In this document: positions 26,567 through 64,000 of the stretch, in pieces
Numbering within the stretch: the first letter of the stretch is position 1
Layout: each line of letters opens with the position of its first letter
The notes under the pieces: model-generated
Database searches by the model: none
Told to the model about the DNA's origin: nothing
What the model saw: the letters and a program-made list of their open reading frames with translations, nothing else
NCBI RefSeq assembly: GCF_030540875.1
Contig: NZ_JAUOEM010000001.1
Coordinates: 62,001 to 126,000, forward strand
Source of the DNA: Flavivirga amylovorans
GTDB taxonomy: Bacteria > Bacteroidota > Bacteroidia > Flavobacteriales > Flavobacteriaceae
Direction: 5' to 3'
DNA: 64,000 nt
Made by a program: the position numbers and the translations under genes

Positions 26567-26578
26567 AACTGCAAGAAA

Positions 26579-36212: not shown

Positions 36213-36220
36213 AAGATAAG

Positions 36221-40056: not shown

Positions 40057-40087
40057 GTTCTTTGTAGATGATTTGAGTTTAAAAAAC

Positions 40088-40195
40088 ATCAGAAGAAAAA
40101 TTAAAGAAAAAAGTGATAGAACTTGAAAAAAAATCATTGAATTGAAGTTAAAAAAGGAAGAAAAAAGTCAATTAGAATTTGATGTAAACAGATAA
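40088..40195 (+). pseudogene. Relic of the GH2 coiled-coil tail carried by the tandem duplication
   Basis: The sequence copies the end of the gene at 36221 (encoding [15 protein letters not shown] onward to the stop). One A is missing from an A9 tract (A8 here), which breaks the frame. It has no start and no function as a gene. It marks the left end of the duplicated DNA. Confidence 0.85.
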
Positions 40196-40227
40196 TGAAA
40201 TCAATATAAATGGTAAAAGTAAATGTT

Positions 40228-41331: not shown

Positions 41332-41347
41332 TCTAAAAAAGAACAAA

Positions 41348-42625: not shown

Positions 42626-42634
42626 TTAGTACTT

Positions 42635-44654: not shown

Positions 44655-46211
44655 ATGAAATTAATTGGAAAGGTAAGTCGAGTAATGTTCATTATAGCTT
44701 GTGCTATTTTGGTTAGTTGTAATTCAAATAAGGGAATTAGCAATAAAAAGGAAGTCGCTAAGGAAACTAAAGACAACAAACAAAAACCGAATGTATTGTT
44801 AATTGCCGTTGATGATGTCAATGATTGGATTGGTGCTTTAGGAGGGCATCCACAGGCTATAACACCTAATCTAGATAAGTTTTGTGACAATGCCATGGTG
44901 TTTAAAAATGCGGTGTGTGCAGCACCTATATGTGGCCCTTCACGATCGGCTATTTTATCAGGTTATATGCCTAATAGAACAGGTGTTTATGGGAATGCTA
45001 CTAACATGATTTATTCTGAAATTGTAAAAAAGAATGCAACATTGCCAGAATATTTTTCTAAACATGGATATCACAGTTTATCAAACGGTAAAATATTTCA
45101 TAAGCACGGTGCAGAATTCGGAACAGATTTTGGGCATTGGGCTTTTGATGAGCATGCTAGAGCAAGAAGGTATACTGATAATAGTGTAAATAGAAATCTT
45201 TCCACAGGTTCAGGAATCATAAAAGGGGTTCGAAAACCAGAATACAAAGGGAAAAGCAAATTAAGATGGGGACCAACCAATTGTGGTTTTGAGGAAATGG
45301 TAGATTATAAAGTAGCCAAATGGGGAGAGCAAAAGTTAGCAGAAGATCGTGATAAACCATTCTTTATGGCTTTAGGGTTAATTAAACCACACTTGTCTTG
45401 GTATGTGCCTCAAGAGTTTTTTGATATGTACGGTTTGGATACTTTAAAAACACCCATTGTGAATATGGATGATTTAAAAGATATCAAAAAACCAAATGGT
45501 AAATTAGTGTTTGAGCCGACTCCAGAATATGAATGGGTAACTAAACATGGTTTAGAAAAAGAAGCAACACAAGCCTATTTGGCTAATATCACATTTGCAG
45601 ATGCTTGTTTGGGGATTATTTTTGATGGACTTGAAAAAAGTGGTAAAGCAGATAATACCATCGTCGTTATTTTTGGAGATCATGGATATCATTTAGGAGA
45701 AAAACAACGCTACTTAAAAAATACGCTTTGGAGCGAAGCAACCAAAACACCTTTTATTGTAAAAATGCCAGGTATGAAAGGACAATTATACAGTGATAGA
45801 ACAGTTGGGTTGATAGATATTTTTCCAACATTAGTAGACCTTTGTGGACTTCCTAAAAAAGAATTAGATGGAACATCAATGGCTGCAGTATTAAAAGATC
45901 CAAACGCCAAATGGGATAGACCAGGAATTACCGTTTCTACAGGTGGTACTTCTGTAATGGGAGAAAAATGGCATTATATAAGTAACCTATCAGGAGCAGA
46001 GGAATTATACGATTTAGAAAACGACCCAATGGAATGGAACAATTTAATTGGAGAAGCAAAGTATAAAGATATTGTAAATGATATGAAAAAATGGGTGCCA
46101 ACCGAACGTGTAAAGGCGGAACGTATCCATTTTAAAAAGCAAAAAAACTATGTAGATGCAGATGCTGATCCTACGATTAAAAAGATGAGGGTTTTAAGTG
46201 AATTGAACTAA
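44655..46211 (+). CDS. S1-family sulfatase lipoprotein (CGPSR)
   Basis: This 518-residue lipoprotein (LVSC, Cys22) has the metal-binding start NVLLIAVDDVNDWIG (Asp53-Asp54) and the formylglycine motif Cys93-Gly-Pro-Ser-Arg97. The downstream motifs GLIKPHLSWYVPQEFFDMY and VIFGDHGYHLGEKQRYLKNTLWSEATKTPF are those of iduronate-2-sulfatase-like S1 enzymes (S1_7-like). The region 60-120 is typical (GHPQAITPNLDKF, SGYMPNRTGVYGN). A formylglycine-generating enzyme is needed but is not in this window. It stands between the FAD enzyme and the second GH117. Substrate: a sulfated galactan position, not determinable here. Confidence 0.93.
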   Translation: MKLIGKVSRVMFIIACAILVSCNSNKGISNKKEVAKETKDNKQKPNVLLIAVDDVNDWIGALGGHPQAITPNLDKFCDNAMVFKNAVCAAPICGPSRSAILSGYMPNRTGVYGNATNMIYSEIVKKNATLPEYFSKHGYHSLSNGKIFHKHGAEFGTDFGHWAFDEHARARRYTDNSVNRNLSTGSGIIKGVRKPEYKGKSKLRWGPTNCGFEEMVDYKVAKWGEQKLAEDRDKPFFMALGLIKPHLSWYVPQEFFDMYGLDTLKTPIVNMDDLKDIKKPNGKLVFEPTPEYEWVTKHGLEKEATQAYLANITFADACLGIIFDGLEKSGKADNTIVVIFGDHGYHLGEKQRYLKNTLWSEATKTPFIVKMPGMKGQLYSDRTVGLIDIFPTLVDLCGLPKKELDGTSMAAVLKDPNAKWDRPGITVSTGGTSVMGEKWHYISNLSGAEELYDLENDPMEWNNLIGEAKYKDIVNDMKKWVPTERVKAERIHFKKQKNYVDADADPTIKKMRVLSELN

Positions 46212-46238: not shown

Positions 46239-47468
46239 ATGGAAAAAATTAGGCATTTATTCATAGTAGTGATTATGATGGTTTTTTATGGAAATATTAC
46301 AGCACAAGAGAAAGGTAAAACCGAAGTGTTTCCATTTTATCCACCGAAAGAAAAGCCTGACTACAAGCTTAGCAAGGCATTGGAAAGGTATTATGATGAC
46401 TACAAAGGGGAACGTGCTGAAACCAACGAGCTTTTTTCGCAGTTTAGATATACCGAATTAAAAGGTTTTGACTATAACGGATATGATGGTACTAGAAACA
46501 GACGTGATCCATCAAAAGTAATTTTAGCGAACAATAAGTATTACGTTTGGTATACTCATAATCATACACCAAATAAGCCAACAAATGGAGTACCGAATTC
46601 TGATATTTGGTATGCAACTTCTAAAGACGGTTTTACTTGGGAAGAACAAGGACCGGCAATTAGTCGTCCAGAAAAACCTAATAAGGGTTGGGATGCAGTA
46701 TTGACACCCGATATTTTGGTTTGGAAAGGCAAATATTATTTATACTATCAGGCGTTTGGTGATGAAAACGGGAAAAACAGACAAAATCCTGTAATCGTAT
46801 CTTATGCAGACTCACCTGATGGACCATGGACAGCTTATGATAAAGTGGTGATTCCAAAAGGTAAGGAAGGAGAGTGGGACAAGAGATGTATTCATGACCC
46901 TCATCCTTTTGTTTACAAGGGGAAAATATATTTGTATTACAAATCAGATTTAGCGGGGTCAAGCCACAAAGATCTTATAAGAATGCACGGAGTGGCTACT
47001 GCAGAAGATCCTCTAGGACCTTTCGAAAAGCACCCTCTGAATCCTATTATGAATTCAGGACATGAAACAACCCTATTTCCTTTTAAAGATGGGATGGCTG
47101 CTTTTGTGATAAAAGATGGGAATGAAAGATCTACGATTCAGTATGCTAAAGATGGTGTCAACTTCGAAGTCAAGGCAACAGCAAAATATATGCCTTTAGC
47201 TGGAGGACCTTTTGTACCAGATGCATTTACGAATACTGATTATGGTCGTGGAATTACATGGGGTATCTCTTTTGCAGAACCTGGAGAAGGAAAAAAAGGA
47301 AATATATTACTTCGCTTTGATTGTGATTTAAGTTTAGATGTTCATGATGAAGCAATGAAAAAAAGACCACCTTTATTGGATGCCGATTTTCTTATCAAAT
47401 TGAAACTGGACGAAGAGCAAAGAGTTAGAATAACAAAGGAGAACCAAAAGTATATCAAATCAGAATAA
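46239..47468 (+). CDS. GH117 family alpha-3,6-anhydro-L-galactosidase-like enzyme (copy 2)
   Basis: This 409-residue enzyme has a cleavable signal peptide (to ITAQ, 23) instead of a lipobox, so it is soluble whereas copy 1 is lipid-anchored. The propeller motifs are complete: LFSQFRYTELKGFDYNGYDGT, RRDPSKVI (Asp90), DIWYATSKDGFTWEEQGPAI, IHDPHPFVYKGKIYLYYKSD (Asp220) and SGHETTLFP (His275, Glu276). It is clearly divergent from copy 1 and lacks the loop NDTIAARDWDLAE found there, so the two probably differ in substrate, for example in tolerance of neighbouring sulfate or methyl groups. Gap to the upstream sulfatase is 27 bp. Confidence 0.92.
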   Translation: MEKIRHLFIVVIMMVFYGNITAQEKGKTEVFPFYPPKEKPDYKLSKALERYYDDYKGERAETNELFSQFRYTELKGFDYNGYDGTRNRRDPSKVILANNKYYVWYTHNHTPNKPTNGVPNSDIWYATSKDGFTWEEQGPAISRPEKPNKGWDAVLTPDILVWKGKYYLYYQAFGDENGKNRQNPVIVSYADSPDGPWTAYDKVVIPKGKEGEWDKRCIHDPHPFVYKGKIYLYYKSDLAGSSHKDLIRMHGVATAEDPLGPFEKHPLNPIMNSGHETTLFPFKDGMAAFVIKDGNERSTIQYAKDGVNFEVKATAKYMPLAGGPFVPDAFTNTDYGRGITWGISFAEPGEGKKGNILLRFDCDLSLDVHDEAMKKRPPLLDADFLIKLKLDEEQRVRITKENQKYIKSE

Positions 47469-47512: not shown

Positions 47513-48931
47513 ATGAAAAAAATACTCATAGTAATTACTGCTTTATATTTTGGGCAGATAGCGATTGCACAGGAAAAAAAAGCCGAAAAGCCTAATATTG
47601 TTTTGTTTTTTGTGGATGATTTGGGATGGAATAATTTAGGATACAGAAATCCGGAAATATTTAAAACACCTAATATTGATCAATTGGCTAAAGAATCTGT
47701 CGATTTTCCGCAAGCTTATGTCGTGAGCCCGAGTTGTAGTCCATCTCGTGCTATGCTAGTTACCGGGAAACATGCTGCTCGTATCAATATGGTTCGTCAT
47801 ATATCTGATATTGATGGGAAAGCTGTTGAAATGATTATGAATGAAAAAGGGGAGCCAGAACATCATATTTGGAAAGCAGACCCTGCTCAAGAACCAAGTA
47901 AAAACTGGTTGGATTTAGAACATGTTACGTATGCTGAAGCTCTAAAAAAACAAGGATATTATAATTTATTTGCTGGTAAATGGCATTTAGGGTCTAAAGA
48001 ATACCACCCAATTCACCAAGGATTTGATAGACAAATTGGAACGACTGATCACGGACATCCATCTAGTTATTATCCAGATTTTTTTGATGATGAACCTGTT
48101 TTTGAAGATGCCGCAGAAAAAGATGAATATTTAACGGATAGATTGACCAACGAAGTGGTAGGTTTTATTGAAGATTATAAACAAGAAAAGCCTTTTATGC
48201 TTTCTATGTGGTACTATAATGTGCATAGTCCAAATATTGGAAGAAAAGATTTGATTCCTAATTTTGAAAATAACCCTGGTCTAAAAGGAAAAGTACAAAG
48301 AAAAGGACAGGATCTTTTGGTAGAATATGCGGCTCAAGTTATGGCTGTGGATGAATCGGTAGGAAAGATAAGAGCAGCTTTAAAGGAAAAAGGAATTGAT
48401 AAGAATACCGTAATTATTTTTACATCAGACCAAGGAAGTTTATTTGAATGGGAGCCATACAGAGGTGCTAAAAAAACATTTACTTTAGGAGAAGGGGGCT
48501 GTAGAGTGCCGTTCATCATCAACTGGCCAGGAGTAACCAAATCGGGTTCTATCAATAGAAATGTAGTGAAAACCACCGATGTTTTTCCAACTTTGGTAGA
48601 AATTGCAGGAGGAAATCCTGAAGATTATAAAGACTTAGATGGGGTTTCGCTAGTAAGTACAATAAAAAAGAATAAAAAAATAAAAAGAGACGATCCTTTT
48701 GTTGGATATAGGTCATACAAAGATTTGTATGCTTCAGTACGTGAAGGAGAATGGAAATTATTAGGTTATAGAAGTGGTAAAGTAGAATTATATAATGTAG
48801 AAAAAGATAGGGTAGAAGCAAATGATGTAGCAGAGAAAAACCCTAGAAAAGTCAAAAAATTATTAAAGAAATTAAAAAAATGGGAAGTGGATATGGGTGT
48901 AGAACAGTATTCAGGTTTCAATAAAAAGTAG
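47513..48931 (+). CDS. S1-family sulfatase (CSPSR)
   Basis: This 472-residue secreted sulfatase has signal peptide to about 20, start motif NIVLFFVDDLGWNNLGYRNPE (Asp35-Asp36) and formylglycine motif Cys75-Ser-Pro-Ser-Arg79. The LFAGKWHLGSKEYHPIHQGFDRQIG segment gives the conserved Lys/His pair, and VIIFTSDQGSLFEWEPYRGAKKTFTLGEGGCRVPFIINWPG carries the metal Asp-Gln. The GKWHLG and GxxxPF-like signatures place it with arylsulfatase-A-like S1 enzymes, a different type from the sulfatases at 44655 and 56164. The stop codon lies just before the GH2 start. Confidence 0.93.
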   Translation: MKKILIVITALYFGQIAIAQEKKAEKPNIVLFFVDDLGWNNLGYRNPEIFKTPNIDQLAKESVDFPQAYVVSPSCSPSRAMLVTGKHAARINMVRHISDIDGKAVEMIMNEKGEPEHHIWKADPAQEPSKNWLDLEHVTYAEALKKQGYYNLFAGKWHLGSKEYHPIHQGFDRQIGTTDHGHPSSYYPDFFDDEPVFEDAAEKDEYLTDRLTNEVVGFIEDYKQEKPFMLSMWYYNVHSPNIGRKDLIPNFENNPGLKGKVQRKGQDLLVEYAAQVMAVDESVGKIRAALKEKGIDKNTVIIFTSDQGSLFEWEPYRGAKKTFTLGEGGCRVPFIINWPGVTKSGSINRNVVKTTDVFPTLVEIAGGNPEDYKDLDGVSLVSTIKKNKKIKRDDPFVGYRSYKDLYASVREGEWKLLGYRSGKVELYNVEKDRVEANDVAEKNPRKVKKLLKKLKKWEVDMGVEQYSGFNKK

Positions 48932-48936
48932 TGATC

Positions 48937-51426
48937 ATGAAAATGTTAAAGTATATCCTATTTCAAGTTTTATTCTTGACCAATTTAGCCTTATTCGCAC
49001 AAGGGGTTACTCAAGCACGTAATGAGCAAAATTTCAATAAAGATTGGCTTTTTTCCTTGGGAGACAATCCCCAATACAGAGAAGTTAAGTTTGAAGATGA
49101 GGGTTGGCGCAAACTGAATGTACCACACGATTGGAGTATTGAAGGAGAGTATCAACCTGATGCCTACAAAGGATTTAGAACAGGTTTTTTTCCTGAAGGA
49201 ATAGGATGGTATCGCAAACATTTTAAGGTAGATAAAAACAAAACGAACAAGCAGTTTGTCATTCAGTTTGATGGCGTTTACATGAATTCAGAAGTTTGGG
49301 TAAATGGTCGTTATTGTGGTCGTAGACCTTATGGATATGCAACTTTTCAGTATGACATAACAGCTCATTTAAAGTTTGGCGAAGAGAATATCATTGCGGT
49401 AAGAGTCGACAATTCTGTTCCAGCGGGTTCTCGTTGGTATGCAGGATCTGGAATCTACAGAAACGTACATTTAATAGAGACCAATTTTGTGCATTTTAGA
49501 GAAATGGATGGTATTTATATTACAACACCTGTTGCAGAAAAAGATAAGGCAACGGTTAAAGCGGAATATATCATATCGTCAAGTTTTTTTAACGACGAAG
49601 AGATTAAACTATTCAAAAAGAATAAATGGAATCGTCAAGAAGATAGATGGGAAAATTCACCAAGAGCACATAACTGTATCATCCGTTCTATTATTTATGA
49701 TGCGAAAGGGAAAGAAGTGGCTAGGGATGAAAAAGAAGCAGAAATTTTTAACTACGACAAAGCATTTAAAATATCGCAAGATATAGAAGTGAAAAATCCC
49801 AAAAGATGGTCAGATACGCAACCATATTTATACACTGTTAAAAGTGAAATTGAATGGAATGGGACTATCGTAGACGATCAAATCACCACAATTGGTATCC
49901 GTAAGTTAGAGTTCAATTTAGAAAAAGGGTTTTTGGTAAATGGAGAAAGAAAGTTGTTAAAAGGTGTTTGTTTACATCATGACGGTGGCGCTGTAGGAGT
50001 AGCTGTTCCTGAAAAAACACAATACTATCGTTTAAAAAAGTTAAAAAAAACAGGTTGTAATGCGGTAAGAACTGCTCACAATCCGTTTGCTCCTGAATTT
50101 TACCGAATATGTGATGAATTGGGGATTTATGTAATGAATGAAATTTTAGATGAATGGACGAGTGCTTGGGGCTATAATTTTACAGATTACAATACTTCAA
50201 AGGCAGGAAATGCTTTTGCGCATCATTTTAATCAATGGTATGAAACAGAAATGAAATCTACCATTTACAGAGATAGAAATCATCCATCTGTGGTAATGTG
50301 GAGTGTAGGGAATGAATTGCCTGAATTGAGATCAGAACCTATCAAAGCAAAAGAAATAGCAAACAAACTAATAGCGATAGCTCATAAAGAAGATGCAACA
50401 AGGCCTGTAACTTTTGGAAATAATGGGCCACATGCAGGCTTTGAAACCGATGTGGACATTTTAGGGCTAAATTACGTGATGGAAAATTATGATCATGCTG
50501 TAAGAGGCTCAAATATTTATGAAGCAGATCATAAAAAGTATCCTAATAAATTAATAGTGGGTACAGAAACGTCTAGAAATGAAATAGACTATTATTTAGC
50601 TTACAGAGATAACCCTTATGTGATTGGCCAATTTATATGGACAGGGATTCAATATTTTGGAGAGGTAAAAGCTAAAAAAGCTGGACTACGAGGTTGGGTG
50701 GCTTCTTTATTAGATATGAGCTTGAATTTATTACCATCAGGAGCCTTGTATTCTTCCGCTTGGAATGATAATCCTACAGTGCATATCACCACCTCCGAAA
50801 CATCACCTGATGCTGATCAGCGATACGAGATTATTCCTATTACAGGAGAAAGAGTATACCAAAATACAAGAGATAAGTTTCACTGGAACTGGGAAAAATC
50901 GGGTGAGAAATATGTAACCGTTTACAGTAACTGTGAAGAGATAGAATTGAAACTAAACGGTAAATCTTTAGGTCGTAAAAAAACAGATTTTACGAAATAT
51001 GCTACGCAATGGGTTTTGGATTACCAAGAAGGAGCGTTAGAAGCCATTGGTTATAACAAAGGTAAAAAAGTAAGTAGCAACAAGTTGGTAACTGCTAAAG
51101 AGCCTGCAAAAATTAAAGCGAAACCTTATTATAAAGGCTTAAAGGCGGATGGTGTAGATGTTAATATTATAGAAGTATCTATCACAGATGAAAAAGGGAA
51201 TTTAGTACCAACAGCTACTAACGATATCAAGGTAGAAGTTTCTGGAGGTGCCAAATTATTGGTCATTGATACTGGGAATTTATACTACAAAGGGAACTTT
51301 AAAACAGATCATAGAAATGCTGCGAATGGTTATATAACCGTAACGGTACAATCTAATGGTAAAGAGGAACCTGTAAAAATTAAGTTCACGTCTGAAGGAT
51401 TAGAAACTGAAGAAATAAAATTATAA
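48937..51426 (+). CDS. GH2-family beta-galactosidase-like enzyme with DUF4982 and GH2-C5 domains
   Basis: This protein of about 829 residues starts at ATG 48937 (MKMLKYILFQVLFLTNLALFAQ); a GTG two codons upstream overlaps the sulfatase stop and is less likely. Domains: sugar-binding jelly roll (about 28-185: NEQNFNKDWLFSLGD, VPHDWSIEGEY), Ig-like (to about 325), TIM barrel (about 330-595), DUF4982-like (about 605-705: VYSNCEEIELKLNGKSLG) and a C-terminal Ig-like domain (about 715-800: LKADGVDVNIIEVSITDEKGN). Acid/base is Glu460 (WSVGNELPE) and nucleophile Glu544 (VGTETSR). It is of the common Bacteroidota beta-galactosidase type, unlike the pair at 33633/36221, so the locus has two GH2 lineages. 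Confidence 0.92.
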   Translation: MKMLKYILFQVLFLTNLALFAQGVTQARNEQNFNKDWLFSLGDNPQYREVKFEDEGWRKLNVPHDWSIEGEYQPDAYKGFRTGFFPEGIGWYRKHFKVDKNKTNKQFVIQFDGVYMNSEVWVNGRYCGRRPYGYATFQYDITAHLKFGEENIIAVRVDNSVPAGSRWYAGSGIYRNVHLIETNFVHFREMDGIYITTPVAEKDKATVKAEYIISSSFFNDEEIKLFKKNKWNRQEDRWENSPRAHNCIIRSIIYDAKGKEVARDEKEAEIFNYDKAFKISQDIEVKNPKRWSDTQPYLYTVKSEIEWNGTIVDDQITTIGIRKLEFNLEKGFLVNGERKLLKGVCLHHDGGAVGVAVPEKTQYYRLKKLKKTGCNAVRTAHNPFAPEFYRICDELGIYVMNEILDEWTSAWGYNFTDYNTSKAGNAFAHHFNQWYETEMKSTIYRDRNHPSVVMWSVGNELPELRSEPIKAKEIANKLIAIAHKEDATRPVTFGNNGPHAGFETDVDILGLNYVMENYDHAVRGSNIYEADHKKYPNKLIVGTETSRNEIDYYLAYRDNPYVIGQFIWTGIQYFGEVKAKKAGLRGWVASLLDMSLNLLPSGALYSSAWNDNPTVHITTSETSPDADQRYEIIPITGERVYQNTRDKFHWNWEKSGEKYVTVYSNCEEIELKLNGKSLGRKKTDFTKYATQWVLDYQEGALEAIGYNKGKKVSSNKLVTAKEPAKIKAKPYYKGLKADGVDVNIIEVSITDEKGNLVPTATNDIKVEVSGGAKLLVIDTGNLYYKGNFKTDHRNAANGYITVTVQSNGKEEPVKIKFTSEGLETEEIKL

Positions 51427-51429
51427 CTA

Positions 51430-52833
51430 ATGAAATATTTTTATAACAGAATACTATTAATAAGTATATCAATCATTTTGTTTTCTTGCGGAGAGAAAAA
51501 AGACAAGCCTGTTGAGGTGGAAAAAGTAACCTCTAAAGAACAAGCGGTTTTAGATTTTATCAATCAAAAATTTGGAATGTTTATTCATTTTAACATGAGT
51601 ACATTTCAAGAAGAAGCCACTGGAGGTTGGGCAACGCCTAATGTAGATCCTAAAATATTTGCCCCAACAAATGTAGATTGTAACCAATGGGCAAAAGCAG
51701 CGAAATCTGCTAAAATGAATTATGCTGTTTTTACAACAAAACATCACGATGGTTTTTGTTTATGGGACTCTAAGGTTACCGATTATGACATTGCGAATAG
51801 TACTTACCAAGGAGGAGATATTGTAAAAAAATATGCAGATGCCTTTAGAAAGGAAGGGATTAAAGTAGGTTTGTACTTTTCTGTTTGGGATAGAACACAC
51901 GAAATAGAGCATGATAAGATCACCGAAGAAAAAATACAGTTTACCAAAGATCAATTAACAGAATTATTGACCAACTATGGTAAAGTAGAATGTATTGTGA
52001 TTGATGGTTGGGGGTCTAAATGGGGTAAAGGTCCAGACTTTGAGGATATTCCTTATGCTACTTTAGCAGATCATATCCATTCTATTCAGCCGAACTGTTT
52101 GGTCATCAATCATAGTTGTCGTACAGATTTAGATGTTACCCAAGTGGTACATTACGAAGCTACACATGGTCAGCATTGTCCTTATGATAATACAATTCCA
52201 TCTCAACAAGGACCAACGATTCAGCCTAAATGGTTTTGGGAGAAGGGGAACGAAAATGGACCTTTAAAATCGGTTAAAGACATTAAAGAAGAATTGAATT
52301 TTGCGAATGCACATTATTCAAATTACTTGTTAAATGCTGCACCTAACGCTATAGGTTTGATGGATGATAATGTAGTTGAGCGTTTGAAAGAAGTAGGAGC
52401 GTCTATCACATTATCTGCACCATTGGCAGCATTGCCAGAATTAAAACCAGTTCATCAAGGTGTTACTGTTAGAGCATCAAGTTATAGCAATGATAATTAC
52501 AAACCAGAGAATGTTATTGATTGTGATTTGTTTACAAGATGGCAATATACAGATGAAGATCAAGAACGCTGGGTGGAGTTAGATTTTGGAGAGCCAAAGG
52601 TATTTAACAGAGTGATTTGTGGTGCTTATAGAGGAGGTATTGAAGCTTTTAAAGTAGAGGCTTTAGTTGATGGTCAATGGAAGTTATTAACCACTGGAAC
52701 CAGTTTGAGGAATAATTTCAACAGGAGTTTTGATGAGGTAAATGCACAAAAATATAGATTGGTTATTACAGAAGGGCATAAGTTCAAAAAGAGCAATCCT
52801 ATGTTGGCAGAATTTACTTTGGTTAAATACTAA
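51430..52833 (+). CDS. GH29 alpha-L-fucosidase/alpha-L-galactosidase-like lipoprotein with C-terminal F5/8-type domain
   Basis: This 467-residue lipoprotein (ILFSC, Cys20) has a GH29 TIM barrel (about 38-340) with FGMFIHFNMSTF, the substrate-binding TTKHHDGFCLWDS (His105, His106, Asp107) and the nucleophile Asp192 in VECIVIDGWGSKW. Residues about 355-467 form a discoidin/CBM32-like beta-sandwich (VRASSYSNDNYKPENVID, RWVELDFGEPKVFNRVI). GH29 enzymes cleave alpha-L-fucosides, and some in porphyran loci act on alpha-L-galactose, which fits the GH117, GH2 and sulfatase context here. Gap to the upstream GH2 is 3 bp, so translation may be coupled. Confidence 0.9.
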   Translation: MKYFYNRILLISISIILFSCGEKKDKPVEVEKVTSKEQAVLDFINQKFGMFIHFNMSTFQEEATGGWATPNVDPKIFAPTNVDCNQWAKAAKSAKMNYAVFTTKHHDGFCLWDSKVTDYDIANSTYQGGDIVKKYADAFRKEGIKVGLYFSVWDRTHEIEHDKITEEKIQFTKDQLTELLTNYGKVECIVIDGWGSKWGKGPDFEDIPYATLADHIHSIQPNCLVINHSCRTDLDVTQVVHYEATHGQHCPYDNTIPSQQGPTIQPKWFWEKGNENGPLKSVKDIKEELNFANAHYSNYLLNAAPNAIGLMDDNVVERLKEVGASITLSAPLAALPELKPVHQGVTVRASSYSNDNYKPENVIDCDLFTRWQYTDEDQERWVELDFGEPKVFNRVICGAYRGGIEAFKVEALVDGQWKLLTTGTSLRNNFNRSFDEVNAQKYRLVITEGHKFKKSNPMLAEFTLVKY

Positions 52834-52941: not shown

Positions 52942-54492
52942 ATGCAAATATTAAAACCCAATTCCTTTCTGTTTTTTATAATCATAATATGCTCAACAAC
53001 TATTGTAAAATCACAAACGAATCTTGTCGATTATTATACCAACGTAATTTCTGAAACTAAAAAAAACACGGTTAAACTTAATAACCGTCTGTCGAATAGT
53101 ACAGATATGACTGCCGATTTACAAAAACTAATAGATGAAGTTTCTAAATATCAAAAAGGAGATAAAAAAGGAGGAACCATTCTTATTAAAAAAAAGAAAA
53201 AAGGAGCATCTATTTACAGGCTTAGAAATATCCAGTTAAAATCAAATGTACGGTTAAAAATAGATAAAGAAGTCATCATAAAACCATTCAACCCTAGCAA
53301 ACCAGGTTACTGTGTACTGAAAGTTGGAGAAAGTATTAAAGGAATTGAAAATGTAGAAATTGTATGTGCCGATAAAAATAAAAAATTCACCATTGACATT
53401 AGTGAAACCAGAGGAAACAGAGAACCTGGTTCATACAACGTAAGAGCTGTTGGTGTTGTATGTGTTGATAATTTTCTGATTTCAGATTTTCACATCATAG
53501 ACAATCAATCTAAAATATCTGCTATTTTATTCAACGGTTATTTTACTGATAAAAACACGAAGCTTCACGGAATTCCTAAAAACGGAATTTTACAAAACGT
53601 GAGTTCTGAAAACATGCACAGAGGATACTCTCTATGTCAAGTACAAATGGTAAAAAACGTTTTATTCCGAAATATGCACGCTAAAGATGCCCCTGCGGCA
53701 TTAAACTTTGAATCTGGTGCGGGTATTGCCAATATTCCAACCTATGAACAAACAGAGCTAGGGATTGTTGACGATATTAGAGTGGAAAACATCAGCTGTA
53801 CCAATTGTGTAAGAGTGGTTGGTTTTAGTCCTCACGTTAGAATTAATGGTAGTGTTTATGTAGATGGCGTTACAGCTAACCAATGTATGACAGCTGTTGA
53901 AGTATCACCTGGTTTTATTGATGCAGCGGTATCTTCAAAAATTAAAAACATCCAAGCAAAACCTACAGCAAATGACCCAAAAGCTTTTAAAAGAGGTTCT
54001 TATAAAAATATTGTGGTAAGAAATGTAGTATTCAATTATAAAAAATTCACATTATACCCAGAGGCAGTTGCCAGAAGAACAGTAGCTCCTGTTAGTTTAG
54101 AAACAGTTGAAAGAGCTGATGCGCATTTAACATACGATGAATTGATGGCTAAATACGCCAAAGAAGGAGAAGAACTTTACAACAAAGAGTACAGCAGAAT
54201 TACAGCTATTCCTGTTGATCAAAGAAGCGAAAAAGACAAAAAAATCTTAGAAGTACTTTCTCTTGATGATTTACAAACCACAGGTCACTACACTATTGAT
54301 GTAAGTGAAGATGATGTAACGATTAATAATATTGACCAATTGAGGATTGATCAAGGAGGAACAGAAAATAGTAAGGTTAGAAAAATTGTTTATGAAGATG
54401 AACCTTCTGTTTGTGAAGATATTAGAGAAGGTTTTGTGATGGTACACAGAAAAGGAAAAAGATTTCAAGCTGGAAATAAGAAAAAACATTAA
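52942..54492 (+). CDS. GH82-like right-handed beta-helix protein (copy 1, variant active site)
   Basis: This 516-residue secreted protein has a signal peptide (to about 24) and a beta-helix (about 75-380) with the pattern of GH82 iota-carrageenases: MTADLQKLIDEVS, IQLKSNVRLKIDKEVII, NFLISDFHIIDN, HRGYSLCQVQ, ESGAGIA and GFSPHVRINGSVYVDGV. The equivalents of the GH82 active-site Gln (Gln233), Glu (Glu257) and His (His298) are present, but the second acid of the family motif (E-x-D) is Gly259. The C-terminal 110 residues are charged and helical, with no T9SS domain. It could be a glycosidase of altered mechanism or specificity, or a binding protein. A similar protein follows. Confidence 0.75.
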   Translation: MQILKPNSFLFFIIIICSTTIVKSQTNLVDYYTNVISETKKNTVKLNNRLSNSTDMTADLQKLIDEVSKYQKGDKKGGTILIKKKKKGASIYRLRNIQLKSNVRLKIDKEVIIKPFNPSKPGYCVLKVGESIKGIENVEIVCADKNKKFTIDISETRGNREPGSYNVRAVGVVCVDNFLISDFHIIDNQSKISAILFNGYFTDKNTKLHGIPKNGILQNVSSENMHRGYSLCQVQMVKNVLFRNMHAKDAPAALNFESGAGIANIPTYEQTELGIVDDIRVENISCTNCVRVVGFSPHVRINGSVYVDGVTANQCMTAVEVSPGFIDAAVSSKIKNIQAKPTANDPKAFKRGSYKNIVVRNVVFNYKKFTLYPEAVARRTVAPVSLETVERADAHLTYDELMAKYAKEGEELYNKEYSRITAIPVDQRSEKDKKILEVLSLDDLQTTGHYTIDVSEDDVTINNIDQLRIDQGGTENSKVRKIVYEDEPSVCEDIREGFVMVHRKGKRFQAGNKKKH

Positions 54493-54555
54493 GGCGTTGC
54501 TTTTATCAATCTTTAATTAAGCATAGAATAACAAAAAAATAAAATTAATGATTTT

Positions 54556-56154
54556 ATGAAGAAAGCTATACTATCAACAATTATGATGATAATTACTACT
54601 ATTTGCCAAGGGCAATTAACACCAAATTTTGATGGTGTTGTTGGTACTTATCAGAGAACTTTAGTGGGCACAGGTTTTAATGATGAAACATCAAACTTAC
54701 AAGTATTGGTAGATGATGTCTCGTCTCAACCTAACGGAGGCACGATAATTATTTCTGGTGAAATGACATTAAGTAGAGTGCTTATGAAATCTAATGTGCA
54801 TATTGATATTTCTAAAGGAACAGTTCTTAAAGGAGCTATAAGTCCAATGTTTGATATCGCTAGGAGATCTCAAACAGAAATAGAAAATATTAAGATTTTT
54901 TGCAGTAACTGTGACCGAACAAAACCTAATGATGATATTACAGAAAAATATGTTATTGATATATCACATCTCAATTCCAATGATAGGTATAGGGCTTTTC
55001 AGTTAGGGAATGTTTTTAACTTTTGGATTTCAGATTATTATGTACAAGATAATAAGTCGATATGGTCATCAATGTCATTAAACCCAATAATTAATACAAT
55101 TAGTACAAACGGAGAAACGCATCAAGGATTATGGGATTATGATGTTATAGCCTCTCCTACTAAAGGAGATGTTCGTTACGCGCATGGAGAAACATTTCAT
55201 ACAGGTTATGGTTTAATTCAGGTGCAATGTGCAAAGAATGTAAATTTTGAGCAGCTATCTGGAGTTGGAGGCGTTACCTTACGATTAGAGTCTGGAGCTT
55301 CTATACAATACGTTGGTACAGAAAATGAGCGAGAACATGGTGTGGTGAAAGGTATAAAAGCGTATGATTTATTTTTAGAAAATGGCTTTACATGTGTTTC
55401 AATGTCACCACATGGAAGAATTAATGAAGATGTGTATTTAGATAATATTAGATCTAAATCATCTGTATATACTGTTGATTTTTCGGCAGGCTTTTTTGAT
55501 AGGGAATTGCGAGTGTTAGACACAGATCCAACTATTGTGGATCCCGTAAAATTTAAAAAAGGAAGATTTATAGGACCAATAATAATCAAAGCGATACACG
55601 GTGAATTTGGTACAAGTGCCGTAGGAAGAAAAGTAGAATACGATTATATTGAAAAAGCATTTAGAGATGCAAACCCTTGGACAAGTTTGCCAATGGAAAC
55701 ATCTAACACCAGAATTATAGCCTCGGCTCCTCCTTTGGGATATCATTCTATTCCATTTGAAGGTGCTACACCAAATATTGTTGAGGGCGAATATACCGCT
55801 ACAATTGATGGCTCAATTACGAGTACAGGATTTCCAAGCTGTATCACTTCATTTTACAATAATATCACTTACGAGGATGACAGAAACAATGTTGATTGTA
55901 GCGCTTTGGGAATTAGCGATTTTAAAAAAGGAGATGTACAGTTTTTTCCAAATCCAGTAATAGATATTTTAACAATTAATCATCCAATTTCTAGTAGTAT
56001 AACAATATATGATAGTATAGGAAAATTGATTTTTAAAAAAATAGCACCTGAAGCAACGTCTCTTATAGATGTTACTAATTATAATACGGGTTTGTATTAT
56101 TTTAAGGTCACATCTATTTATGGAACAAAAGCGGAACGTATCATAATTAAATAA
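54556..56154 (+). CDS. GH82-like beta-helix protein with T9SS C-terminal sorting domain (copy 2)
   Basis: This 532-residue protein has a signal peptide (to about 20) and a beta-helix (about 45-370) closer to true GH82 than copy 1: SNLQVLVDDVSSQPNGGTI, VLMKSNVHIDISKGTVL, HTGYGLIQVQCAKNVNF, GVGGVTLRLESGAS and VSMSPHGRINEDVYLDNI. Gln222, Glu245 and His286 match GH82 catalytic-region residues, while Gly247 replaces the Asp expected in the ETD motif. Residues about 460-532 form a type A T9SS sorting domain (FFPNPVIDILTI, ITIYDSIGKLIFK, YNTGLYYFKV, ERIIIK), so it should be exported by the type IX system and attached or released at the surface. That position suits an endo-acting or glycan-capturing first step. 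Confidence 0.8.
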   Translation: MKKAILSTIMMIITTICQGQLTPNFDGVVGTYQRTLVGTGFNDETSNLQVLVDDVSSQPNGGTIIISGEMTLSRVLMKSNVHIDISKGTVLKGAISPMFDIARRSQTEIENIKIFCSNCDRTKPNDDITEKYVIDISHLNSNDRYRAFQLGNVFNFWISDYYVQDNKSIWSSMSLNPIINTISTNGETHQGLWDYDVIASPTKGDVRYAHGETFHTGYGLIQVQCAKNVNFEQLSGVGGVTLRLESGASIQYVGTENEREHGVVKGIKAYDLFLENGFTCVSMSPHGRINEDVYLDNIRSKSSVYTVDFSAGFFDRELRVLDTDPTIVDPVKFKKGRFIGPIIIKAIHGEFGTSAVGRKVEYDYIEKAFRDANPWTSLPMETSNTRIIASAPPLGYHSIPFEGATPNIVEGEYTATIDGSITSTGFPSCITSFYNNITYEDDRNNVDCSALGISDFKKGDVQFFPNPVIDILTINHPISSSITIYDSIGKLIFKKIAPEATSLIDVTNYNTGLYYFKVTSIYGTKAERIIIK

Positions 56155-56163
56155 ATATCCAAA

Positions 56164-57621
56164 GTGACTTTTCATAATATAAGAACAGTAGTATTGGTCT
56201 TTTTTTTATTAGCAATATTAAATTGTAAAAGTAATGTGCTAAAAACAGAAAAAAAACCAAACGTACTTTTTATTGCAATTGATGATTTAAATGCTTGTTT
56301 GGATGGAATGAATGGCGAAATACAGGTTGCTACACCTAACATCAATCAATTAGCAAGCAAAGGCATGTTATTTACAAATGCACATTGTGCTGCACCAGCT
56401 TGTAACCCGTCTCGGGTAAGTGTAATGACAGGTTTGGCACCAGCCACTACAGGCGTATATGTAAATACTCAAGATTGGAGAGAAAATACCTTTCTTAAGA
56501 ATAAAACAACGCTGCCTCAACATTTTAAGAATAATGGCTATGCAACTTTTGGAGGTGGAAAGTTGTACCATGCTGCTTCTTTAACAAAAAAGGGGTACTC
56601 AGGTTATATAGATGCTAAGCCTTGGGACGCTTATTTTCCATCTAAAACAAGGCAAATGCCAAATGAAATAGCGCCAGAAACTATTCCTGTTAATGGAAAT
56701 AAAGCATTTTATCATGGGTATTTCGATTGGGCAGCTTTAAATATAGAACCGCATGAAATGGCAGACGCCAAAGTAGTATCTTGGGCAGAAGGAATATTAT
56801 CTCAATCTCACGATAAACCTTTGTTTTTAGCAGTAGGTATATACAGACCTCATATTCCTTGGTGGACGCCCAAAGCGTATTTTGACAAATATCCTATTGA
56901 TGAAATTGAATTACCTGAAGTGCAAGAAAACGATTTGGATGATGTTCCTGAAGCAGGTAAAAACATGGCGAAACGTAATTGGCATAAATGGATAAAAGAT
57001 CAAGGTAAATGGAAACAAGCTGTTCAAGCCTATAAAGCTTCTGTTAGTTTTACAGACGATATGGTAGGGCGCCTTTTAAAAGCTCTTGAAACAGGACCAA
57101 TGAAAGATAATACCATTGTTGTTTTATGGTCTGATCATGGATACCATTTAGGGCAAAAAGAGCATTGGGAAAAGTTTGCATTATGGGAACAAACCACCAG
57201 AGTGCCTTTAATTTTGGCAGCTCCAGGTAAAACTTCTGAAGGAAAAAGTAGTTCGCAACCTGTAAGTTTACTGGATTTGTATCCTACTTTAAATGAGTTG
57301 TGCGGTATTCCTGTTAAAGAAAAGTTAGATGGAGAAAGCTTAGTGCCTTTATTGGAAACCCCTGATTTAAAAACAGGAAGAGCGGTCATATCCACTCAAA
57401 AATTTAATAATCATGCTGTACGATCAGAAAAGTGGAGATACATTAGATATAGTGATGGTTCGGAAGAATTATACAACCAAGAAAAGGATCCTAAGAATTT
57501 TGAAAACTTAATTGGTAAGCAGGGGTATAGCAAAGTTATTGAAGACTTATCAATTTGGTTGCCTAAAACAAATGCAGAAAAGAATCCGTTGAAAGTTCAC
57601 AAGAAAAGTAAACAGAAATAA
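56164..57621 (+). CDS. S1-family sulfatase lipoprotein (CNPSR), GTG start
   Basis: This 485-residue lipoprotein starts with GTG at 56164, the only sensible start before the signal FFLLAILNC (Cys21). The metal site is VLFIAIDDLNACLDG (Asp40-Asp41) and the formylglycine motif Cys80-Asn-Pro-Ser-Arg84. HIPWWTPKAYFDKYP and VVLWSDHGYHLGQKEHWEKFALWEQTTRVPLI are typical of S1_7/iduronate-sulfatase-like enzymes, so it resembles the enzyme at 44655 more than the other two. It starts 9 bp after the GH82-like gene and precedes GH110 by 15 bp. A sulfatase next to an alpha-galactosidase suggests desulfation before alpha-1,3-galactose removal. Confidence 0.92.
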   Translation: MTFHNIRTVVLVFFLLAILNCKSNVLKTEKKPNVLFIAIDDLNACLDGMNGEIQVATPNINQLASKGMLFTNAHCAAPACNPSRVSVMTGLAPATTGVYVNTQDWRENTFLKNKTTLPQHFKNNGYATFGGGKLYHAASLTKKGYSGYIDAKPWDAYFPSKTRQMPNEIAPETIPVNGNKAFYHGYFDWAALNIEPHEMADAKVVSWAEGILSQSHDKPLFLAVGIYRPHIPWWTPKAYFDKYPIDEIELPEVQENDLDDVPEAGKNMAKRNWHKWIKDQGKWKQAVQAYKASVSFTDDMVGRLLKALETGPMKDNTIVVLWSDHGYHLGQKEHWEKFALWEQTTRVPLILAAPGKTSEGKSSSQPVSLLDLYPTLNELCGIPVKEKLDGESLVPLLETPDLKTGRAVISTQKFNNHAVRSEKWRYIRYSDGSEELYNQEKDPKNFENLIGKQGYSKVIEDLSIWLPKTNAEKNPLKVHKKSKQK

Positions 57622-57636
57622 CAAGATAAATATATC

Positions 57637-59445
57637 ATGAATAAATTTTTAAAACTAATACTACTATCAATTGCCTTTTTGCAACTTACCCATGCGCAAA
57701 CTGTTGTTAATGTAGTAGATTGGGGAATTCTACCTGGGAAAGATGCCACATTAGAATTAAATGAGTTGATCGCTTCTTTAAAAGGACAAGAAAACGTCAT
57801 CGTTAACTTTCCTAAAGGAACGTATCAGTTTTATCCCGAAAATGCTTTTGAACAATACAGGGCTGTTACTAATCATGACAATAGTTTAAAAAGGATGGCG
57901 TTTCCAATGTTTGGCTTAAACGGTGTTACTATAGAAGGAAATGATTCTGAATTTATTTTTCATGGTAGACTGTGTCCGTTTATTGTTGAAGGAGGTCAGA
58001 ACATCACTTTAAAAAACTTTTCAATCAATTGGGAAATTCCTTTTCAAGCAGAACTTAAAGTAATAGAAACCAATAAGGCTGAAAATTCTTTTACAGCAAA
58101 AGTAACGACCAATCACAAGTATAAAGTTAAAGGAGAGAAAATTTACTTTCAACATTATAATTGGGAAGATCCTATCGGTCAAAACACGCCTTTTGATCCT
58201 GAAACAAAATCGCCTATTTGGGATTCTAGACCTTACAGTTTCAACATCAGCAAAGCAATAGCTACTGATGTAGGGAATGGGCAAATAAAATTTAAGAATG
58301 CCATGAAGAAGTTGCCACCTGTTGGGACTGTTGTGGTAAATCATGGCCCACAGGGAACTAATAGATTGGTACAAGCGATTCATTTATCAAATACAAAAGA
58401 TACATATATAGAAAATGTGACCATTTACGCTGCGGGTGGAATGGGCTTGATTGCAGAGCGCTGTGAGAATATTCATTTAAATGCTTATAAAATCACTTCT
58501 AGTGAAGGTCGTATGTCAGCCACAAGAGCAGATGCCACCCATTTTTTAGGGTGTAAAGGTTTGATAAAGTTAGAGAATTGTTTGTTGGAGCATATGTTGG
58601 ATGATGGTATTAATGTTCATGGAGCTTATGTGAAAGTCGCTGAATATTTAGGTGATAATCAGTTTTTATGCGAAATCAGTCATTGGCAACAATGGGGGTT
58701 GATATTTGCTGAACCAGGAGATGAGGTCACATTGATTTCAAGAGAAACCGTATTGCCTATATTGAAAACAAGCGTTAAAGAGATAAAGATTTTAAACGAA
58801 CAAAAGTTTTTATTAACGGTTAACGAAGTGCCCGAATATATGCCAAAAGGATTGTTGTCATTTGAAAATATCACTTGGAATCCAGACTTGGAAATGAAGA
58901 ACAATATTATTAGAGAAAATAGGGCAAGATCGGTATTAGTGACTACAAAAGGTAAAGTAACTATTGAAAATAACTATTTCTCGTCACAGATGCACGGCAT
59001 TTTAATAGAAGGTGATAATAACAAATGGTACGAATCGGGTGGAGTGACAGATATCACCATAAAAAATAATGTATTCGAAAATATAGGTTATGGAGATGAT
59101 ACCAGATATCCTTTATATATCTCACCATTATTAAGACCAGAACAAAGGTTAGGAGAAGATAAATACCATTACAATATCAATTTCATTAACAATAAAATCA
59201 AAAGTTTCAACGGGCATTTGGTCTATGCAAAATCAGTAAAAGGATTGGTGTTAAAAGGAAATGAAATCATACTTGATGATACATATCCAACTGGAGCACA
59301 AAAAACACCGCTTGTATTTGATTATTGTGAAAATGTATCTCTGGAGAAAAATAAATTCTCAGGTTTTAGTTGGCCTATTACTATAGAAAAGGTGGACAGT
59401 GATACGAACTTTAAGTTAAAAAAGAACGAAGGGGTTTCTAGATAA
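57637..59445 (+). CDS. GH110 exo-alpha-1,3-galactosidase-like beta-helix enzyme
   Basis: This 602-residue secreted protein has a signal peptide (to LTHAQ, 21) and a right-handed beta-helix typical of GH110. The signature RADATHFLGCKGLIKLENC followed by HMLDDGINVHGAYVKV gives Asp299, Asp322 and Asp323 at the spacing of the family's catalytic aspartates. GH110 enzymes are inverting exo-alpha-1,3-galactosidases; a marine member is known to act on alpha-1,3-galactose of lambda-carrageenan origin. Here it extends the locus from agar-type (L-sugars) to carrageenan-type (D-galactose) alpha linkages. It is the last gene of the enzyme operon and converges on the HxlR gene. Confidence 0.9.
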   Translation: MNKFLKLILLSIAFLQLTHAQTVVNVVDWGILPGKDATLELNELIASLKGQENVIVNFPKGTYQFYPENAFEQYRAVTNHDNSLKRMAFPMFGLNGVTIEGNDSEFIFHGRLCPFIVEGGQNITLKNFSINWEIPFQAELKVIETNKAENSFTAKVTTNHKYKVKGEKIYFQHYNWEDPIGQNTPFDPETKSPIWDSRPYSFNISKAIATDVGNGQIKFKNAMKKLPPVGTVVVNHGPQGTNRLVQAIHLSNTKDTYIENVTIYAAGGMGLIAERCENIHLNAYKITSSEGRMSATRADATHFLGCKGLIKLENCLLEHMLDDGINVHGAYVKVAEYLGDNQFLCEISHWQQWGLIFAEPGDEVTLISRETVLPILKTSVKEIKILNEQKFLLTVNEVPEYMPKGLLSFENITWNPDLEMKNNIIRENRARSVLVTTKGKVTIENNYFSSQMHGILIEGDNNKWYESGGVTDITIKNNVFENIGYGDDTRYPLYISPLLRPEQRLGEDKYHYNINFINNKIKSFNGHLVYAKSVKGLVLKGNEIILDDTYPTGAQKTPLVFDYCENVSLEKNKFSGFSWPITIEKVDSDTNFKLKKNEGVSR

Positions 59446-62623: not shown

Positions 62624-62859
62624 GTCTATCTTGTTTTTCACAATATTAGAAAAAATAGCTCAGCTTAATGGCGTTGGTTAGTTCAGAGTATCAGATTTTT
62701 ACGTTTAAGTAACCTGTATTTATCTAGAAAGACAACTTTATAATATTCTATTGCTAATTTTAATTCTTGACTAATAAAACTCGAGAAATACCACCTTAAT
62801 GGGTTAAGGTAATAACTAAGACAACTATGAGTAGACACTTAAAAGTAGATTTAAGTTCA

Positions 62860-64000
62860 ATGACAAAACAGATTTTAATCTTTTTATTTTTTGCAAATTT
62901 TGCATTTGCGCAAAATTTTTCCACAGGCGGCGGCGCCATAAAAAATGGCGTTTCAGGTAGCATAAACGGAGATAGCGTAATCTTTGTTTCTGAGCTTGAG
63001 GGCACAACATCTGCACATACTACAGAAGGTACATTGTTATGGCGAAACGAAACCGATTCGCCAGCAGTTATGTTTGAAATTGAAGCATCTGATATTAACA
63101 ATGACGGTAATGATGATTTAATAGCTGCTAGTGGTAATGGTAATATATATTGTTGGGACAGTAGTGGAAAACTGTTGTGGAAATTTACGCCCGATCATAA
63201 GGTTCGTTTCTCAGAAGTAGCAGTTATTAATCAAAACGGGAAAGTTCAAATTTTTGCAGGAGGTAATGATTATAAATTATACGAACTGGATGCAAATGGG
63301 CAGTTGGTTTCTGAGACTAAAATTAAAGGGGTCGTTAGAAAAATAGAAGCAGGAAACTTTATAGAACCTGATAAACAATGTTTGTTTTTAATGACTTACA
63401 ATCATGACAAATTCAGATGGCAATTCTTTGGGTTTATAGACCCCATTTCTAAAGAGATCATTAAATCTTTACCTTACAGAGATGCAACCAAATATGGTTT
63501 GAAAGCATACTCAAAAATAATGATAACCGATTTTGTAGTTTCTGATATCAACAAAGATAAAAAAGATGATATTCTAATTTTTGGCGATATTAATTGGAAG
63601 AGTTCTTTTTTAGCAGTTGATGGCGATTTTAGACTATTGGCAAAATATAACGCCACAGGTAAGGATACACAGCGTTATGCGCATACTAAAGGTGTAAGCT
63701 TATTACCTTATAAAGATGAGATTGTTTTTAGAATGGGTAGTGTCATGTACGTGTGCGATTTAAAAGGTAATTTAATAAGTAAAACGGGAAAAAAATATAA
63801 AAATGCAACGTATAGTGATTTAGTTTTTGACGCACAAAACAAGAAACTTTTTGCTGTAGGAGAATTAGGTGCAGGAAACAGTATATATGGGTTTGATTTA
63901 GAAAATAAAAACTGGTTAGATACTAAACACCAATATCTTGGTCTATATAGTAAGGTAAAAGAAAATATCAACGATTTATATAAAGATGCTTTAAATTTCA
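62860..64000 (+). CDS. Secreted beta-propeller/FG-GAP-like protein (5' part, runs off the window)
   Basis: The frame is open from ATG 62827 to the window end. I prefer ATG 62860, which gives the signal peptide MTKQILIFLFFANFAFAQ; with ATG 62827 the n-region would be unusually long. About 380 residues are visible. Repeats with Asp-rich calcium-type loops occur (DINNDGNDDLIAASGNGNIY; DINKDKKDDILIFGDI), alternating with WD/PQQ-like blades (CWDSSGKLLWKFTPDHK, YELDANGQLV). This fits a VCBS/FG-GAP or PQQ-like propeller used for binding or as the N-terminal part of a larger secreted enzyme. The C-terminus, and any T9SS domain, lies outside the window. Confidence 0.75.
   Translation, partial: MTKQILIFLFFANFAFAQNFSTGGGAIKNGVSGSINGDSVIFVSELEGTTSAHTTEGTLLWRNETDSPAVMFEIEASDINNDGNDDLIAASGNGNIYCWDSSGKLLWKFTPDHKVRFSEVAVINQNGKVQIFAGGNDYKLYELDANGQLVSETKIKGVVRKIEAGNFIEPDKQCLFLMTYNHDKFRWQFFGFIDPISKEIIKSLPYRDATKYGLKAYSKIMITDFVVSDINKDKKDDILIFGDINWKSSFLAVDGDFRLLAKYNATGKDTQRYAHTKGVSLLPYKDEIVFRMGSVMYVCDLKGNLISKTGKKYKNATYSDLVFDAQNKKLFAVGELGAGNSIYGFDLENKNWLDTKHQYLGLYSKVKENINDLYKDALNF

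Follow-up and report, generated by a model that had tools for sequence, protein, structure and literature searches.

The 64,000-nucleotide stretch of Flavivirga amylovorans DNA analysed here (contig NZ_JAUOEM010000001.1, positions 62,001 to 126,000; hereafter the window) encodes two neighbouring proteins, P0001 and P0002, which are divergent members of the GH82 beta-helix group, a family described as acting on iota-carrageenan only, and belong to its common Glu-x-Gly type. Both lack the Asp (Asp247) that stands two residues after the catalytic Glu in the iota-carrageenase of Alteromonas fortis, a change that a sequence-only reading of the window had taken as a shared derived state of the pair. 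Gly is the residue met most often at this position among the sampled members of the group and is not derived in P0001 and P0002; a stronger oddity than the missing Asp is the loss, in P0001, of an otherwise constant sulfate-binding Arg. From the altered substrate-binding residues and the gene neighbourhood, the two proteins are predicted, with slightly better than even confidence, to be secreted endo-hydrolases of the GH82 type whose substrate is a sulfated galactan, either lambda-like or hybrid.

P0001 (52942..54492, + strand, 516 amino acids) is encoded by an intact open reading frame and carries a signal-like stretch at its N-terminus, as judged by eye. It is followed after 63 bases by the co-directional gene of P0002 (54556..56154, + strand, 532 amino acids), in which residues 464-531 form a C-terminal sorting domain of the type IX secretion system (T9SS), type A. 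Both were related by phmmer to the A. fortis iota-carrageenase (1h80/3lmw) at levels far above chance (E-values of 9.4e-24 for P0001 and 1.4e-18 for P0002), and the alignments placed F-E-S-G-A of P0001 and L-E-S-G-A of P0002 opposite M-E-T-D-N of the A. fortis enzyme. The AlphaFold2 models are of moderate confidence (mean predicted local distance difference test scores of 60.2 for P0001 and 64.0 for P0002), the helix core being better than the C-terminal part; their top structural match was 3lmw/1h80 (Z 38.0 and 40.3, respectively), and the best chain other than A. fortis reached Z 25.7 and 26.2. GH82 membership is thus indicated by homology to a characterised member and, in the predicted models, by a right-handed beta-helix of the A. 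fortis type. The two open reading frames and the relationship proposed for them at the outset are confirmed. Pfam searches (E up to 0.001) gave no match for P0001 and only T9SS-tail models for P0002, while NCBIfam searches (E up to 1) gave none for P0001 and, for P0002, the tail together with weak matches to a rhamnogalacturonidase (E 0.0047) and a polygalacturonase (E 0.068) model; the presence of a GH82 model in either library was not checked.

Like A. fortis CgiA (PDB 1h80, 1ktw, 3lmw), both proteins have the beta-helix and equivalents of Gly217-Tyr218, Gln222, Glu245 and His281, found as G228-Y229-S, Q233, E257-S-G259 and S296-P-H298 in P0001 and as G217-Y218-G, Q222, E245-S-G247 and S284-P-H286 in P0002. 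The catalytic Glu, Gln and His of GH82 and the Tyr218 equivalent are therefore kept in both. In the alignments described below, the Gln222 and Glu245 equivalents were constant (91/91 rows) and the His281 equivalent was present in 83 of the 89 readable rows. Asp247, Arg243, Arg303 and Glu310 of A. fortis, in contrast, correspond to Gly, Asn, Glu and Asp in P0001 and to Gly, Arg, Asp and Asp in P0002. The residues had been read correctly in the sequence-only reading: Glu-Ser-Gly stands in both proteins where A. fortis has Glu-Thr-Asp, so that the second catalytic acid is missing from each, and the hallmark blocks follow in the order described. Their spacing, which had been called matching, is not exact, as one extra residue in P0001 lengthens its Gln-to-Glu distance to 24 residues, against 23 in both P0002 and A. 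fortis.

Relatives were gathered from 397 genomes of the family, at least 28 of which had a match at 1e-10, eleven of these being weak; at most three candidates were scored per genome in these scans, and genomes could be missed. Eighteen genomes were searched again with P0001 and P0002 separately, namely 17 with strong matches and G248, a genome of the window's own genus that had no match to either protein. Loci from named genomes were added to the alignment; the scan of these genomes gave six loci, of which L012, a weak partial match, was dropped. The 70-row alignment leaves out duplicates and everything scoring worse than E 1e-30, namely twelve weak matches and a fragment of 150 amino acids, and the 91-row alignment adds 21 rows from five further genomes. 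Two of these were the new ones among the five hit genomes that a second genome draw gave twice, and three were reached through loci. The phylogenetic tree was inferred from 68 rows, with two partial rows left out and without the trait columns, and the partial hits G051:C140 and G084:C42:231879 were excluded from all state counts.

In the 70 rows, the Asp247 position holds Gly 44 times, Asp 19 times, His 6 times and a gap once; in the 91 rows, the corresponding figures are 59, 21, 10 and 1. The three states need 6 changes on the 68-row tree (shuffled mean 22.4), and all six GH82-like proteins found in the own genome read Glu-Ser/Thr-Gly. With Asp in 21 of 90 readable rows, Asp247 is, on these data, not family-defining, and the Gly majority rules out the Asp-to-Gly change as a marker of P0001 and P0002; the sequence-only reading had taken a property of one enzyme as a property of the whole family. 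Because Asp is the minority state as sampled, the mechanism and the substrate of much of the GH82 group cannot be read from the A. fortis enzyme, and the Gly type as a whole may work by a different mechanism.

In the tree, P0001 joins P0002 and an ortholog of the latter from G323 (support 99/86), and this clade joins another GH82-like protein of the own genome (support 97/88). The proposal that the pair forms a group of its own is thus upheld as a supported subclade with the G323 protein; the widespread Gly is not its mark. The pair falls outside both the A. fortis group and the group of Pseudoalteromonas carrageenovora, in a tree that does not hold the Zobellia (CgiA1-3), Cellulophaga (CgiA_Ce) and Microbulbifer enzymes. 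The G323 protein is the one ortholog of P0002 among the 18 genomes searched (53% over nearly the full length); a GH150 gene is found within a few kb of it, as are a sulfatase and a further GH82-like protein. No relative of P0001 above 39% was found in the same 18 genomes.

The plasmid-borne GH82 protein of P. carrageenovora (WP_131692546.1) reads Glu-Pro-Gly. It was equated by gene order with PCAR9_p0028, which shares 95% identity with the An33 iota-carrageenase from Pseudoalteromonas; iota-carrageenan is hydrolysed by the P. carrageenovora strain itself (PMC6262041). It shares with the pair the Gly two residues after the Glu and the same Gln and His, and has the Arg two residues before the Glu that P0001 lacks; it differs in lying on a distant branch of the tree and in having its gene beside those of a GH16 protein and a TonB receptor rather than a GH110 protein. 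Because this enzyme is tied to iota-carrageenase activity, Gly alone marks neither lost activity nor another substrate. The notion that Gly means absence of iota-carrageenase activity is likewise ruled out by it, the printed data concerning the 95% relative and the strain, with identity resting on gene order. The passage on the GH82 logo in PMC3669377 names Gln, Glu and His as previously reported highly conserved residues and does not name the Asp there.

No statement of a missing Asp in GH82 was found in the passages of open papers that the literature search returned. A 2010 paper by Hatada, the title of which reportedly speaks of an 'unusual catalytic mechanism', may, at a guess, concern such an enzyme. 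Column counts over the 91-row alignment, which deal with sequence columns and not geometry, gave no compensating acid common to all Gly-type proteins. Ten columns are acidic in more than 60% of the Asp or the Gly rows and two of them are richer in acid in the Gly rows, those of A. fortis Asn74 (63% of Gly vs 14% of Asp rows) and Glu108 (66% vs 48%); both are distant in sequence from the active-site strands.

Although the missing Asp was correctly observed, what had been concluded from it is not borne out, and the neighbouring and stronger anomaly, which the sequence-only reading had not listed, is the Arg loss of P0001. Arg243, two residues before the Glu, is present in 90 of 91 rows, P0002 (Arg243) included, and the sole exception is Asn255 of P0001 (A-L-N-F-E); P0001 is termed GH82-like rather than a typical member because of this. 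A shift in the alignment cannot account for the loss, since the stretch D-A-P-A-A-L-N-F-E holds no Arg or Lys. P0001 also has Pro at A. fortis Gly239, a position that is occupied by Gly in 88 of the 88 rows compared with it, and the further deviations G238A, G219S and G272C. In the iota-carrageenase CgiA_Ce of Cellulophaga sp. QY3, whose G228, Y229, Q233, Glu and His have counterparts in the pair, R254A was inactive, R254K lost 94% of activity and R314A was nearly inactive, and a model of the enzyme places Arg254 at 2.84 A from the sulfate group of the anhydrogalactose-2-sulfate in subsite +1 (PMC3669377). R254 and R314 were assigned to A. fortis Arg243 and Arg303, and hence to Asn255 and Glu320 of P0001, by a numbering offset of 11 (anchors Gly228, Tyr229, Gln233 and His292) and not by a sequence alignment; the number given for the Glu in that paper is one off from this offset. 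P0002 has Asp308 at the Arg303 position, so that one of the two +1-subsite arginines is lost in P0002 and both are lost in P0001. At the position of A. fortis Glu310, which is among the proposed catalytic residues (PMC4919138), P0001 has Asp327 and P0002 Asp315.

The gene neighbourhood of the pair resembles lambda-carrageenan loci. An alpha-L-fucosidase-like (GH29) gene with an F5/8 type C domain (51430..52833), P0001, P0002, an S1-type sulfatase gene (56164..57621) and the gene of a GH110-type protein with GLAA-B barrel domains I and II (57637..59445) follow one another on the + strand at gaps of 108, 63, 9 and 15 bases. The GH110-type protein is 35% and 31% identical to two proteins taken as the GH110s of PUL8, one of the polysaccharide utilisation loci (PULs) of P. 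carrageenovora. It is followed by four genes (HxlR-like, SnoaL-like, NmrA-like and one without a Pfam match) and by the start of a gene of the GH150 (lambda-carrageenase) type (62827..64000, +), which continues past the window end; the full protein (G000:C1:124827-127514) shares 50% identity with the presumed second GH150 of PUL8. A second GH150 gene at G000:C1:142809-145604 is 47% identical to a P. carrageenovora GH150. Upstream lie three GH2 genes, two in tandem (33633..38926, +; 25% each to the PUL8 GH2) and one at 48931..51426 (+; 32%), and a sulfatase gene at 31980..33575 (+), putatively of subfamily S1_8, with identities of 40% to one sulfatase from PUL9 and of 36% and 32% to a pair from PUL8. 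The gene set of a lambda-carrageenan locus (GH150, GH110, GH2 and S1_8) is thus present, with the S1_8 label putative and GH150 adjoining. PUL8 has been tied to lambda-carrageenan and contains S1_8 sulfatases, while those of PUL9 belong to S1_8 and S1_15 (PMC6262041); the action of GH110, GH2 and S1_8 enzymes on lambda oligosaccharides has been shown (PMC12549532). Compared with the lambda-carrageenan locus of Pseudoalteromonas in these two sources, whose GH110, GH2, S1_8-like and GH150 homologues are present or adjoining here, the window locus adds the two GH82-like, one GH29-like and two GH43-like proteins, and unrelated genes precede its GH150 gene.

A second cluster of the own genome (G000:C1:466001-574000; L172-L176, L226) is very rich in sulfatases, two of them S1_15-like by a putative label. 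It also contains GH110 and GH150, with 53% and 41% identity to P. carrageenovora, respectively, and three GH82-like genes of the Gly type, which are separated by about 21-37 kb from whichever GH110 or GH150 gene is closest. For the window GH110, five close relatives (59-69%) were found, four of which have GH150 or GH82 genes nearby: in G237 and G002 the relative is next to GH150, and in G180 and G383 it is near Gly-type GH82 and GH150. The GH110 is not a constant neighbour of GH82 or GH150, as the G051 relative was near neither in the 19.9 kb stretch examined.

The genes expected for kappa/iota catabolism, DauB and a strong GH127, were not found in the own genome, in which GH129, GH167 and GH16 were not searched. 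The best match to DauB was 32% (E 7.7e-37, vs below 1e-86 in 13 of 17 other genomes) and the GH127 family gave only a weak match (E 2.3e-29, vs below 1e-89 in the same 13). Of the 13 genomes that have both DauB and GH127, 10 encode an Asp-type protein, compared with 0 of the 4 that do not (Fisher p 0.015). Five further genomes were tested for DauB only; DauB was found in 5/5 and an Asp-type protein in 2/5, which brings the counts to 12/18 vs 0/4 (p 0.029). GH110 or GH150 lies within 20 kb of 12/37 Gly, 1/17 Asp and 1/6 His rows (Gly vs Asp, p 0.043). The corresponding counts for DauB or GH127 are 2/17 Asp, 6/37 Gly and 1/6 His rows; a tie of the Asp type to kappa/iota clusters by neighbourhood is not borne out by them, the genome-level association being clearer.

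On the favoured reading, P0001 and P0002 would cleave the beta-1,4 linkages of a sulfated galactan from red algae in which most alpha-linked units are plain galactose and not anhydrogalactose-2-sulfate. P0002 would be exported by the T9SS and act at the cell surface because of its T9SS sorting domain, whereas P0001 may be located in the periplasm or the medium; a SusC/SusD pair (23198..28126, +) would import the oligosaccharides, and the S1 sulfatases, GH110 and GH2 enzymes would trim them to galactose. Hydrolysis would probably be inverting, with Glu257 of P0001 and Glu245 of P0002 as the proton donor as in A. fortis. Water would not be activated by an Asp at position 247, candidates for the base being Asp327/Asp315 or a water assisted by the Gln and His, and the +1 site would no longer need anhydrogalactose-2-sulfate. 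A wider proposal is that a GH82 branch moved from iota-carrageenan to lambda-type or other non-3,6-anhydro galactans, using the Glu acid without Asp247, with P0001 remodelled and both its +1 arginines gone; it is put forward tentatively and at well under an even chance.

Several observations weigh against the favoured reading. We know of no activity for P0001, P0002 or any close relative, and P0001 could be inactive or purely binding. GH82 is said to act exclusively on iota-carrageenan (PMC12549532), and no abstract or passage returned by the literature search gives GH82 a lambda-carrageenan activity. The Arg303 position is variable, Arg being found in 33 of the 89 readable rows; in the G323 ortholog of P0002 it is Val and not an acid. 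Asp at the Glu310 position occurs in just 13 of 59 Gly rows and so is no general answer for the Gly type. As regards the pathway genes, PF07944 cannot tell anhydrogalactosidases from other GH127 enzymes, and the GH127 profile is not specific to carrageenan users, since it also matched in 3 of 14 control genomes; of the four pathway-less genomes, two are of one genus (G000, the own genome, and G019) and a third (G051) is 88% complete. The co-location of the Gly type with GH110 and GH150 is weak and its rows are not independent. G002 holds DauB, GH127 and ten Gly-type proteins together; Gly-type proteins are numerous in genomes that have DauB and GH127, so the Gly type is not tied to non-anhydro galactans. 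Lastly, the Gly-type GH82 clusters of G323, G084 and G180 contain 36-39% relatives of a GH42-like protein of P. carrageenovora, a kappa-family enzyme related to an exo-beta-carrageenase (PMC6262041), and therefore favour hybrid rather than pure lambda substrates.

A doubtful though by no means far-fetched alternative is that P0001 and P0002 are ordinary Gly-type iota-carrageenases that take iota motifs from hybrid carrageenans, their neighbourhood mirroring the mixed carrageenans found in nature. The Glu-Pro-Gly enzyme of P. carrageenovora, with its tie to iota activity, is consistent with this, as are the exclusive iota activity described for the family (PMC12549532) and the retention in P0002 of the Arg243, Tyr218, Gln222, Glu245 and His281 equivalents; the loss in P0001 of an Arg missing from 1 of 91 rows, the acid at the Arg303 position in both proteins and the failure to find a strong DauB or GH127 in the genome argue against it. 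The same deviations of P0001 (R243N, G239P at a position that is Gly in 88/88 compared rows, G238A, G219S and G272C), together with the inactivity of the matching R254A mutant of CgiA_Ce (PMC3669377), speak for a catalytically dead GH82 fold with a galactan-binding or scaffold role, P0002 being then the active enzyme. This is nevertheless unlikely, as P0001 has an intact open reading frame and keeps the Gln222, Glu245, Tyr218 and His281 equivalents, which is unexpected under relaxed constraint. The view of the sequence-only reading, in which losing the second acid makes the pair a newly derived subfamily that works by a new mechanism, has on its side the absence of the Asp from both proteins and their supported group with the G323 protein; with Gly the commonest state as sampled (59/90 readable rows) and present in an enzyme linked to iota-carrageenase activity, it is highly improbable. 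Its suggestion of another galactan does not follow from Gly alone, but finds backing in the altered +1 subsite and the gene neighbourhood.

The significance of the lambda-like or hybrid reading lies in the contrast with a family described as iota-only, the Glu/Asp pair of which was derived from the A. fortis structure: the window places two neighbouring and differently altered GH82-like members in a lambda-type locus, in a genome where DauB and a strong GH127 were not found. If action on non-anhydro galactans is true, GH82 proteins of some marine bacteria would be mislabelled by automatic annotation as iota-carrageenases. Growth of Zobellia galactanivorans on lambda-carrageenan takes place with GH110 and S1_8 and in the absence of GH150 (PMC6262041), a gap on which a non-iota GH82 branch, if real, might bear.

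The remaining genes of the window locus include a GHL6/GHL10-like pair, a GH43-like protein and an FAD oxidoreductase (38910-44569), the last with a 61% paralog near GH110 in the second own cluster (L172:7750-9690). They are followed by an S1-type sulfatase gene at 44655..46211 (+), with 60-61% relatives beside a GH150 gene in G383 and G180, a second GH43-like gene at 46239..47468 (+) and a further S1-type sulfatase gene at 47513..48931 (+), the product of which is 33% and 30% identical to two PUL7 sulfatases of P. carrageenovora. A DUF5107-TPR protein is also encoded upstream of P0001 and P0002.

Among the other GH82-like proteins, His occupies the Asp247 position in 10 of 90 readable rows (L019, L060, L121, L124, L125, L128, L206, L208, L213 and L217), and eight of these ten carry the motif C-R-I-E-(A/S)-H-T. 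Six Asp-type rows (L023, L024, L048, L050, L061 and L129) have Trp (Q-P-W) aligned at His281, the other readable rows having His. At least 11 GH82-like genes (10 Gly, 1 His) are present in G002. Tandem groups of three or four Glu-Val/Ala-Gly genes were observed at L044 and L047 (G002:C5) and at L215 and L219 (G1099:C2, about 112-116 kb), and a short open GH82-like fragment at G084:C42:231879-232109 (150 amino acid frame), between two full genes, is possibly a decayed copy.

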